61,787 bases of DNA from Thermodesulfobacteriota bacterium (GTDB taxonomy: Bacteria > Desulfobacterota > Desulfobulbia > Desulfobulbales > JBFMBH01): the NCBI GenBank assembly GCA_040755095.1, contig JBFMBH010000007.1:1-61787 (forward strand), written 5' to 3'. The notes below the pieces were generated by a model, which saw nothing but the letters and a program-made list of their open reading frames with translations, did no database searches and was not told where the DNA came from. The translations under genes and the position numbers were made by a program. Positions 8,657 through 11,937 of the stretch are shown in pieces. Each line of letters begins with the position of its first letter. The first letter of the stretch is position 1.

Positions 8657-9100
8657 TCAAGGGCGGGCGCGAAGCCGGTCCAGGACCAGACCAAAAAAGC
8701 GAAGGCCGCGGCCCTGGAACAGCCAGCCCAGATGGGCGTGGCAGCGGCAGCACAGGACGTAGCTCCAGGCGCAGCCGGGGAACCAGGTATGCTCCAGGGT
8801 GGGCAGGCCGGCCGCGCTGGCCCCAGGCGCCGCGTCAAAACAGCCGATGGTGAAGGCAAAGCCCGCCGGGTTGAAGAAGGTGTGGACATGACCACCGGCA
8901 ACAGCGATCGCAGCCTCGGGCGTGGTGACTGGCTGGCCGCAGGCCGCGCACAGCAGCTGCGGTCCTTCGCCAGGGTGCGGGCGGCCCGGGCGGGCTTCCT
9001 CATGCTGCACCGGGACGATCTCGCTGGCCGGGCGCAACAGGTGCCAGGGCAGGACATGGTCTTCCGGGCCGATCCGGGCCGATGGTGACCAAGAAAACAT
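8657..9100 (-). CDS. Cereblon-like CULT-domain protein
   Basis: Small 147-residue protein whose C-terminal part (about residues 48-145) carries every hallmark of the CULT domain, the thalidomide-binding domain of eukaryotic cereblon that also occurs as stand-alone bacterial proteins. The zinc ligands are Cys51/Cys54 (LCAACG) and Cys117/Cys120 (CCRC). The aromatic cage appears as His104, Trp106 (EHTWFPG), Trp112 (AW) and Trp126/Phe128 (HLGWLF). An NPAGF motif is at residues 77-81. Some 45 N-terminal residues precede the domain. No catalytic partner such as a Lon N-domain is fused. The start ATG at 9100 lacks a strong ribosome binding site and lies 13 bases after the read-through stop of arsS, so the two are probably co-transcribed. 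The natural ligand is unknown; uridine-like and cyclic-imide compounds bind known members. Confidence 0.82.
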
Positions 9101-9137
9101 GGCTTTGGCCAACCTAGGCCGCGATGGAGCCGCCTCA
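9101..9137 (-). promoter_or_regulatory. Candidate selenocysteine insertion signal (UGA plus bacterial SECIS-like hairpin)
   Basis: The in-frame UGA at 9135-9137 is followed on the minus strand by 18 bases and then a hairpin. GGCC (9117-9120) pairs with GGCC (9107-9110) around the loop UAGGUU, and an outer GGCU/AGCC pairing (9128-9131 with 9101-9104) extends it. The UGA-to-loop distance fits bacterial SECIS elements. The loop has GG but not within its first two bases, so the match is imperfect. Confidence 0.5.
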
Positions 9138-10118
9138 GGTGAAGCCGGCACCCGCGGTGCAGGCGTAGCAGTGGTCACCCACCGCGATGGGCCGTCCTGC
9201 CAATGGCAGGGTCGCCAAGTCCTGGACCCGGAGGCGACCGGCCTCCCAGGTAAGCCCTGCCGCCAGGTTGAAATCGCAGTCCGCCAGTTGGCCATGCCAG
9301 CCCACGGAAACGAGCGTCCGGCACATGAGGCCGTCCAGGGTGCAGGGATTGAAGCACGCCGCCAACCGGCCCTGGTAGCGCTCCAGGTTGCCTGAGGACT
9401 TGAGCCAGGAGCGGAAGCGGCCCAGGGGCGCGTTGGCGAAGGTGAAGAGCCGGTTGAAGCGGATCCCCCAGCGGCTGGCCAGGACCCGCCGGAACTGGCG
9501 TTGGGCCTGCTCCTGGCCGGGCGGCAGGAAGGCACCGGCGGGATTGACCACCAGGTTAAGGGTCAGGCCGGTGTCCTCCTGGCCGTAGCCCAGCCGGTTA
9601 AGGGCCGCCAGCGCCGCCAGACTGCGCTCCCAGACCCCGCGGCCGCGCAGGCTCGCGGTCTGGCCGGGATCGGTGGAGGGGAAGGAGGCCACCAGCGCCA
9701 CCTGCAGGCGCCGCAGGAGATCCAGCAGCGGCCGGCCGCCGGGCTCGGTGATGAGGGTAAGGTTGGTGCGGAAGAGCAACTGCCGGCCGGGTTGCACCAG
9801 GCCGGCCACCAGTTCCTCGATCCCGGGCACCAGCTCCGGGGCGCCGCCGGTGATGTCGCAGACGTCTACCCGGGCGGTGGCGGCATAGGCCATGACCGCA
9901 GCCATGGTCTCGCCGTCCATGATCTCCGGGCGATCCGGGCCGGCCTCCAGATGGCAGTGGCGGCAGGTCTGGTTGCACAGCCGGCCGACGTTGATCTGCA
10001 GGGTGGTGATCCCCGTGCGCCGCAGCTCCAGGCCCTGGCCCTCCAGGCGCCGGGCAAAAGGCAGCCAGCTGGCCCGCTCCGGGGCGCCCTCCTCCTGGGC
10101 GGCGGACTGGAGGCTCAC
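9114..10118 (-). CDS. arsS: Arsenosugar biosynthesis radical SAM protein ArsS, predicted selenoprotein
   Basis: Radical SAM enzyme of the ArsS family, which builds the arsenosugar precursor from a methylated arsenical and the SAM-derived deoxyadenosyl group. The [4Fe-4S] motif CNQTCRHC sits at about residues 48-55 after LQINVGRL. A C-terminal Cys-rich region follows (CFNPCTLDGLMC, then CDFN, then CYACTAGAGFT). In family members the segment after GAG usually ends with a Cys before GG. Here that codon is UGA at 9135-9137, and reading continues in frame through GGSIAA to a TAG at 9114. Selenocysteine forms of this family are known, so the UGA is read as Sec (about 334 residues). A conventional caller would stop at 9135. 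The start GTG at 10118 lies 13 bases after the AhpD-like gene; an upstream in-frame start would overlap that gene heavily. No arsM lies beside it. Confidence 0.82.
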
Positions 10119-10131
10119 GGGCAGCGGCTGA

Positions 10132-10464
10132 TCACAAGGAGATGTCCCGGGCCCGGCGGCGCATCTGCACGCCGTGCACCAGGGAGGCGCCGCCCCGGAT
10201 GGCAGCTGCCACATGCACCGCCTCGGTCATTTCGGCCAGGGTGCCCCCCTTCTCCAGGCAGCCAGTCGTGTAGGCATCGATGCAGTACGGGCATTGCAGG
10301 GCGTGGGCCACGGCCAGGGCGATGAGTGCCTTCTCCCGCTCGCTCAGCGCCCCCTCGGCGAATACCGACTGGTAGTACGCGAAAAACTTTTCGGCCAGCT
10401 CTGGCGCCTCATTGCCGATCTCGGCGAAGCAGGCCAGATCTTGGCACTGGTAGTAGTCGGACAC
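10132..10464 (-). CDS. Arsenosugar-associated AhpD/carboxymuconolactone decarboxylase-like protein
   Basis: A 110-residue member of the AhpD-like peroxidase family that accompanies ArsS in many genomes. The core is EGALSEREKALIALAVAHAL followed by the redox motif CPYC (in QCPYCIDAYTTGC), then EAVHVAAAIRGGASLVHG. The CxxC cysteines should be the active pair; here they are ordinary Cys, not UGA. The start is GTG at 10464, fixed by GGAGGAG five bases upstream; an earlier in-frame ATG would place that ribosome binding site inside the gene. It is the first gene of the arsenosugar cluster and is followed directly by arsS. Its exact chemistry is not established. Confidence 0.85.
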   Translation of the reverse strand: MSDYYQCQDLACFAEIGNEAPELAEKFFAYYQSVFAEGALSEREKALIALAVAHALQCPYCIDAYTTGCLEKGGTLAEMTEAVHVAAAIRGGASLVHGVQMRRRARDISL

Positions 10465-10533
10465 AGCTCTCCTCCGCATTTCTTGACGAGCCGCTCCTGC
10501 CGCCACCGTCCGGCGACCGGCGCGGCATCCTGG

Positions 10534-11937
10534 CTAGGCCGCCTCCGGCAGGCGACCGGCCCGCAGATCCTCGCCCTCCAGGAAGCGCCGGACGGACTCA
10601 GCCGCCTCCTTGCCCTGCAGCACCGCTTTGGCCACGGTCTGGGGGCCCAGCACCGAATCGCCGCCGGCAAAGATCCAGGGGATGCTGGTCTGCAGGGTCA
10701 CCGGATCCACCACAACGGTGCCCCAGCGGGTCAGGTCCAGCGACGCGTCGCCGGTGACCGTGCGGTCAACGTCCTGGCTGATCGCCGGGATGATCGCCTC
10801 GGCCTCGATGATGAAATGGGAATCGGGCACCGGCACCGGACGGCACCGGCCCGAGGAATCGCATTCGCCAAGCTGCATGCGGATACACTCCACCCCGGTC
10901 ATGCGGCCGTTCTCACCGATGATCCGCACCGGCGCCGCCAGGAATTCGATCTTCACCCCTTCCTCCTCCAGGTGGTGGATCTCCGCCCTGGAGGCCGGCA
11001 TCTCCTCCCGGCCCCGCCGGTAGAGGATGAAGGCCTGGTCGGAGCCGGTACGAAGGGCCGTACGGGCCACATCGATGGCCACGTTGCCGCCCCCCACCAC
11101 CACCACCCGTTTGCCCAGGTTGAAGCGCTCACCCAGGTTGACCCGGCGCAGATAATCGACCCCGTGTACGACGCCGGCCAGCTCCTCACCGGGAATGCCC
11201 AGCTTGCGGCTGACGTGGGCGCCCACCGCCACGAACACGGCGTCGAAGCCCTCGGCCCGCAAGCTGGCCAGGTCCCTGTCCTGGCCGATCCGCACCCCGG
11301 TAACCACCTCGACGCCACAGCTCTTCAAGGCCGCAAACTCGGCCGCGACGATGTCCCGGGGCAGGCGGTAGGCGGGGATGCCCACTGTCAGCATCCCCCC
11401 CAGGATGGGCAGAGACTCGAAGATTGTGCAGCTGTAGCCGGCATGCGCCAGATAGAAGGCCGCCGCCATGCCCGCCGGCCCCGACCCCACCACCGCAACC
11501 TTTTTCCCCTTGGGCAGCGCGCACGGGGTCGTGAGGTCCTTGTCATGGCTCACCATCCAGTCCACGACATACCGCTCCAGCAGCCCGATGGCCACCGGCT
11601 CGCCCTTCTTGCCCCGCAGGCACGCGCCCTCGCATTGGAGCTCCTGGGGACAGACCCGGGCGCAAACCGCCGGCAGACAGCTTGTCCGCCGGATGGTCCA
11701 GTAGGCGTCCTCCACCCGCCCCTCCCGCAGGCAGGCAATAAAGCCCGGAATGTCGTTGCCCAGTGGGCAGCCCTTGCGGCAGCCCGGCTTCTTGCAGGAG
11801 AGGCACCTCTCCGCCTCCAGGCGGGCCCCAGCCTCGTCGATACCGCAGCTCACCTCGGCAAAGCCCTGCACTCGCTCGGCGACCGGGAGCTCCCGCGGCT
11901 GCTGGCGGGAGATCTTCATCCGTTCTTTGACATCCAT
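10534..11937 (-). CDS. GltD/NfnB-type NAD(P)H-dependent FAD oxidoreductase (glutamate synthase small-subunit family)
   Basis: A 467-residue flavoprotein. An N-terminal iron-sulfur domain carries CLSCKKPGCRKGC (about residues 45-57) and CARVCPQELQCEGAC (about 92-106). It is followed by an FAD-binding Rossmann motif VAVVGSGPAG (about 149) and an NAD(P)H-binding motif VVVVGGGNVAIDVA (about 286). IFAGGDSVLGP near the C-terminus closes the FAD site. This architecture serves as the electron-input subunit of NADPH glutamate synthase and as NfnB in electron-bifurcating transhydrogenase. No glutamate synthase large subunit or NfnA gene is adjacent, so the partner is encoded elsewhere or it works as a homomer. 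GAGGAGGAA precedes the start at good spacing. Confidence 0.88.
   Translation of the reverse strand: MDVKERMKISRQQPRELPVAERVQGFAEVSCGIDEAGARLEAERCLSCKKPGCRKGCPLGNDIPGFIACLREGRVEDAYWTIRRTSCLPAVCARVCPQELQCEGACLRGKKGEPVAIGLLERYVVDWMVSHDKDLTTPCALPKGKKVAVVGSGPAGMAAAFYLAHAGYSCTIFESLPILGGMLTVGIPAYRLPRDIVAAEFAALKSCGVEVVTGVRIGQDRDLASLRAEGFDAVFVAVGAHVSRKLGIPGEELAGVVHGVDYLRRVNLGERFNLGKRVVVVGGGNVAIDVARTALRTGSDQAFILYRRGREEMPASRAEIHHLEEEGVKIEFLAAPVRIIGENGRMTGVECIRMQLGECDSSGRCRPVPVPDSHFIIEAEAIIPAISQDVDRTVTGDASLDLTRWGTVVVDPVTLQTSIPWIFAGGDSVLGPQTVAKAVLQGKEAAESVRRFLEGEDLRAGRLPEAA

Follow-up and report, generated by a model that had tools for sequence, protein, structure and literature searches.

ArsS adenosylates arsenic in arsenosugar biosynthesis, as described for cyanobacterial ArsS (Cheng et al. 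2021, as cited in PMC12159101). The corresponding NCBIfam model, TIGR04167, bears the name 'arsenosugar biosynthesis radical SAM (seleno)protein ArsS', and the family is counted among predicted selenoprotein families (PMC9312934) and listed as a selenoprotein family with the motif GxxU (PMC13188914); both reviews trace this listing to earlier bSECISearch work. Two forms are of relevance here. The selenoprotein form (rSAM_SeCys, type example AAR34688.1) has selenocysteine (Sec) in place of a C-terminal Cys and an AhpD/CMD partner gene upstream, while the Cys form retains the Cys in a GSS-C context and shares the radical SAM plus DUF3641 architecture and the conserved Cys columns. We analysed a stretch of 61,787 nucleotides (contig JBFMBH010000007.1 of a Thermodesulfobacteriota bacterium, hereafter the window), which encodes a protein resembling the selenoprotein form over the whole length of the family and accompanied, as in that form, by the upstream partner gene. 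As ArsS has been catalogued as a selenoprotein family for about 20 years, the window gene is an additional, well-supported example of a family already known.

Gene model, family membership and neighbouring genes

The features of the locus are as follows.

9114..10118, minus strand: arsS-like radical SAM gene, 334 aa with predicted Sec-328; the chosen start is GTG, its exact position being uncertain
9954..9977, minus strand: radical SAM cluster motif CNQTCRHC, residues 48-55; C48, C52 and C55 are invariant in a 55-sequence alignment
9135..9137, minus strand: in-frame UGA (residue 328), predicted to be read as Sec; the column holds Cys or UGA only (147 loci)
9117..9134, minus strand: read-through tail GGSIAA, a 6-codon tail typical of UGA loci
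9114..9116, minus strand: predicted true stop UAG, within the apical loop of the SECIS-like hairpin
9107..9120, minus strand: SECIS-like hairpin GGCC-UAGGUU-GGCC with 4 G-C pairs, in register with covarying hairpins of relatives
10132..10506, minus strand: AhpD/CMD-type arsenosugar biosynthesis-associated peroxidase-like partner gene, Cys form with CPYC (TIGR04169, 182.3 bits, cut-off 120)

The ArsS frame lies on the minus strand, where it runs through HCYACTAGAGFT to the UGA at 9137-9135, continues as GGSIAA and meets TAG at 9116-9114, exactly as the earlier note had read it. Its statement that a standard annotation ends the protein 7 residues early was also borne out, the table-11 open reading frame terminating at the UGA (9135). 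The frame contains no other stops, and the 18 nt that separate the UGA from the second stop are the standard length. Reading the UGA through corrects the arsS gene model. That the Sec is 'hidden', as had been claimed, holds for a plain ORF caller, but not for the family as such, whose Sec/Cys nature is already in the NCBIfam model name and in the selenoproteome reviews.

The read-through protein scored 362.9 bits against TIGR04167 (cut-off 300; profile positions 2-303 of 303), 155.5 bits against PF12345 and 45.2 bits against PF04055, and it carries both features of ArsS, the radical SAM CxxxCxxC motif and the DUF3641 domain. In a six-frame search of the genome, the Pfam DUF3641 match spans exactly one TGA and reaches profile position 134 of 134; the TIGR04167 match likewise runs through one internal TGA to the last column. 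Apart from the radical SAM motif, the 55-sequence alignment has invariant Cys columns at positions 266, 281, 317, 320 and 328, the last of these being the Sec position. The identity of the window protein to the closest UGA-form ArsS found does not exceed about 59%.

The TIGR04169 partner lies directly upstream of arsS in 61/69 UGA loci and in 17/78 Cys loci. Further upstream of this pair is a gene for a flavoprotein similar to GltD, the small subunit of NADPH-dependent glutamate synthase (10534-11937, minus strand), which scores below the gltA cut-off (443 vs 472) and is a possible electron donor. On the other side, 13 nt past the arsS UAG, the ATG at 9100 opens a reading frame (8660-9100, minus strand) whose product is a bacterial CULT-domain protein (phmmer E 2e-22 to 4v32), similar to the part of cereblon that binds thalidomide, and has no Pfam or NCBIfam match at 1e-3. 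No CULT gene was found beside arsS at the other loci examined, in which respect the window differs from them.

Distribution of the Cys and UGA forms

Among 395 genomes of the phylum, 120 have an ArsS over the cut-off, and about 40 loci contain exactly one internal TGA. The comparison comprised the window and 39 UGA loci, 30 Cys forms and 80 further loci from named genomes; the 147 loci scored leave out two cut by contig ends, and a few may represent one contig present in two collections. The column occupied by the UGA in the window holds Cys in 78 loci, UGA in 69 and nothing else in any locus, which upholds the earlier proposal that UGA replaces the conserved C-terminal Cys of ArsS; the family alignment had been set beforehand as a possible refutation of it. 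An in-frame UGA where homologues have Cys is a feature of bacterial selenoproteins. The same column is invariant in the 55-sequence alignment once Sec is written as C.

The two forms also differ around this residue. The signature GFT-U-GG, present in the window, occurs in 65/69 UGA loci and 0/78 Cys loci, and GSS-C in 76/78 Cys forms. In 59/69 UGA loci exactly 6 codons follow the UGA, this tail mostly reading GG(A/S)I... In many UGA-ArsS genes (L054-L070 and others) the true stop is itself a second UGA, 18 nt past the Sec UGA, so that in one message one UGA would be read as Sec and the other, located inside the SECIS hairpin, as stop.

In the protein tree, built on 314 columns with the Sec column included and written as C in all rows, 38 UGA rows formed one branch with a support of 100/100. 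The remaining two UGA rows (L052 and L053), both GST-U, are a separate pair among the Cys forms, and this position away from the main UGA branch fits at least two Cys/Sec changes; selA was not found in the genomes of L053 (90% complete) or L052 (73%). No other member of the UGA clade has a terminal branch as long as that of the window protein (0.71), whose nearest neighbours in the tree are all UGA forms. For the most part, then, Sec-ArsS forms a single clade that has a sequence signature and a partner gene of its own and a SECIS loop overlapping the stop codon.

These data bear on the idea that the TGA arose from a Cys codon (TGC or TGT) through an error of sequencing or assembly. A single base would be enough, and the host assembly (99.8% complete) consists of 255 contigs with an estimated contamination of 3.5%. 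However, the window carries the GFT-U-GG of the UGA loci, not GSS-C-GG, and sits in the tree among UGA forms only, so that an error of this kind is nearly refuted.

Selenocysteine machinery of the host and the SECIS-like hairpin

The host genome encodes selA (604 bits), selB (358 bits) and selD (348 bits), together with a tRNA-Sec (74.7 bits, anticodon UCA) on which ARAGORN agrees. The search for selA, selB, selC and selD, also fixed in advance as a possible refutation, therefore found the whole set. The sel genes and the tRNA-Sec lie on contigs other than that of the window, and contamination is formally possible for each, though their spread over four separate contigs makes it unlikely. More widely, selA occurs in 33/38 UGA-ArsS genomes and in 27/28 of the well-finished ones, although within the phylum UGA and Cys genomes are not told apart by having selA (33/38 vs 72/80).

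The host selD (L019, contig C121:5522-6445) is itself a selenoprotein gene, with an in-frame UGA before AAKIGP and, 20 nt after this UGA, a perfect 7-bp hairpin (GUCCGAC/GUCGGAC, loop GGCUCU).

Read-through by itself does not name the residue inserted, and the UGA might in principle stand for Trp or some other standard amino acid, through a reassigned code or general suppression. Against this, the aligned residue is Cys and never Trp, the genome holds complete Sec machinery including tRNA-Sec, and many relatives end the same gene with a UGA 18 nt later; we consider such decoding highly improbable.

The earlier note placed a SECIS-like stem-loop 18 bases after the UGA. A hairpin is indeed present; it is its apical loop, not its stem, that starts at 18 nt, the stem being formed by 9120-9117 with 9110-9107. 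In relatives, the apical loop lies 18-21 nt downstream of the UGA and is commonly AGUU or AGGU, and in those with a 6-codon tail the loop or its closing pair overlaps the true stop codon. By simple bSECIS-type criteria (stem, loop, spacing and a G at loop position 1 or 2), a hairpin was found at 64/68 distinct UGA sites vs 2/78 Cys sites; shuffled UGA sites passed in 6.4 cases on average and in 14 at most. Stem covariation scored 0.309 in sub-type A1 (0.165 in shuffles, 0/500 as high) and 0.400 in sub-type A2 (0.155 in shuffles, 1/500 as high), and register slides gave lower scores.

Published rules for bSECIS elements ask for a stem of 4-16 bp, a loop of 3-9 nt, a distance of 16-37 nt from the UGA, a G in the first two loop bases and an MFE of at most -7.5 kcal/mol (PMC13188914). 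The window hairpin is within range in stem, loop size and spacing and borderline in energy (-6.7 kcal/mol bare and -8.2 with short flanks). It differs from those of other selenoprotein-form ArsS in having U/U at the position where U-A, U-G or C-G pairs close the loops of relatives in its sub-type, and it agrees with the loop-G rule only when the opening U of the loop is bulged out or a U/U pair serves as the closing pair. In an alternative drawing, a U is bulged and an A-U pair closes the loop GGU. The E. coli fdhF element has a bulged U, and the redrawn hairpin may be said to resemble it. Folded alone, the window hairpin was no better than shuffles (z -0.3 to -1.5), and an equally good hairpin arose at the site in 14-19% of shuffles. 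The SECIS assignment in the window rests on comparison, as the strict loop rule fails unless the hairpin is redrawn and the energy by itself is unremarkable; the window hairpin is a weak, degenerate member of its set.

The weakened hairpin, with its U/U mismatch and failed loop rule, and the long branch of the window protein could point to a decayed Sec signal in this lineage and to the UGA being a real stop, with ArsS ending after GFT as a truncated and possibly impaired protein. We regard this as improbable: the tail GGSIAA is intact and typical, the second stop stands at the standard 18 nt with no other stops in the frame, the TIGR04167 score exceeds the curated cut-off, the partner gene upstream shows no damage and the host produces Sec proteins besides this one.

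Translation of the UGA as Sec is, in our assessment, highly probable because of the family match, the column restricted to Cys and UGA, the host machinery, the hairpin of the relatives and the clade of UGA forms. The whole reading, in which SelB and the hairpin insert Sec-328, GGSIAA is added and UAG ends the protein, is one in which we have high confidence. The data directly show the UGA, the family, the column, the host machinery and the hairpin conserved in relatives, while Sec incorporation itself, the role of Sec and the substrate in this host are inferred. SelA and SelD would make Sec-tRNA(UCA), and SelB carrying it would bind the hairpin just downstream of the UGA, the loop of which overlaps the true stop UAG; the ribosome would then place Sec at residue 328, add GGSIAA and stop at UAG.

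Predicted position and role of selenocysteine

The AlphaFold model of the protein is a confident radical SAM fold (pLDDT 90.5), except for low confidence at residues 1-9 and 328-334; the predicted structure therefore does not place the Sec. Its best Foldseek neighbours are the SPASM/twitch-type enzymes SkfB (6efn), SuiB and EpeE (best E 9e-11), which have a Cys-rich C-terminal domain in common with the window protein, but share only about 15% identity with it at TM-scores near 0.5 and lack Sec, so that membership in this group is not claimed.

Sec-328, taking the place of the conserved Cys, is on a short, probably mobile C-terminal tail, which would adjoin the Cys-rich (C266, C281, C317 and C320), auxiliary-cluster-like domain. 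Such a position by a likely auxiliary cluster would suit substrate binding, a redox function or a role as ligand. The 'likely catalytic' of the earlier note goes further than this, as the residue could just as well bind a metal or arsenic. Most likely, the selenolate would bind or reduce the substrate (an arsenical, if the named activity of the family holds) or ligate iron.

Synthesis of arsenosugars in the host is doubtful, because neither an arsenosugar-type ArsM nor any other ArsM over the cut-off was found in its genome (NF038099, 20 bits vs 400; NF008823, 103 bits vs 263). The lack of the arsenosugar-type enzyme, along with Sec in GFT-U, sets the window apart from the Cys form. Given this lack, the GFT-U signature and the single clade, we tentatively suggest that Sec-ArsS and its AhpD-like protein might be a functionally distinct branch whose substrate is not the arsenosugar precursor, a possibility to which we attach rather low confidence. 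The Sec-ArsS clade offers a clean set in which the role of Sec can be tested.
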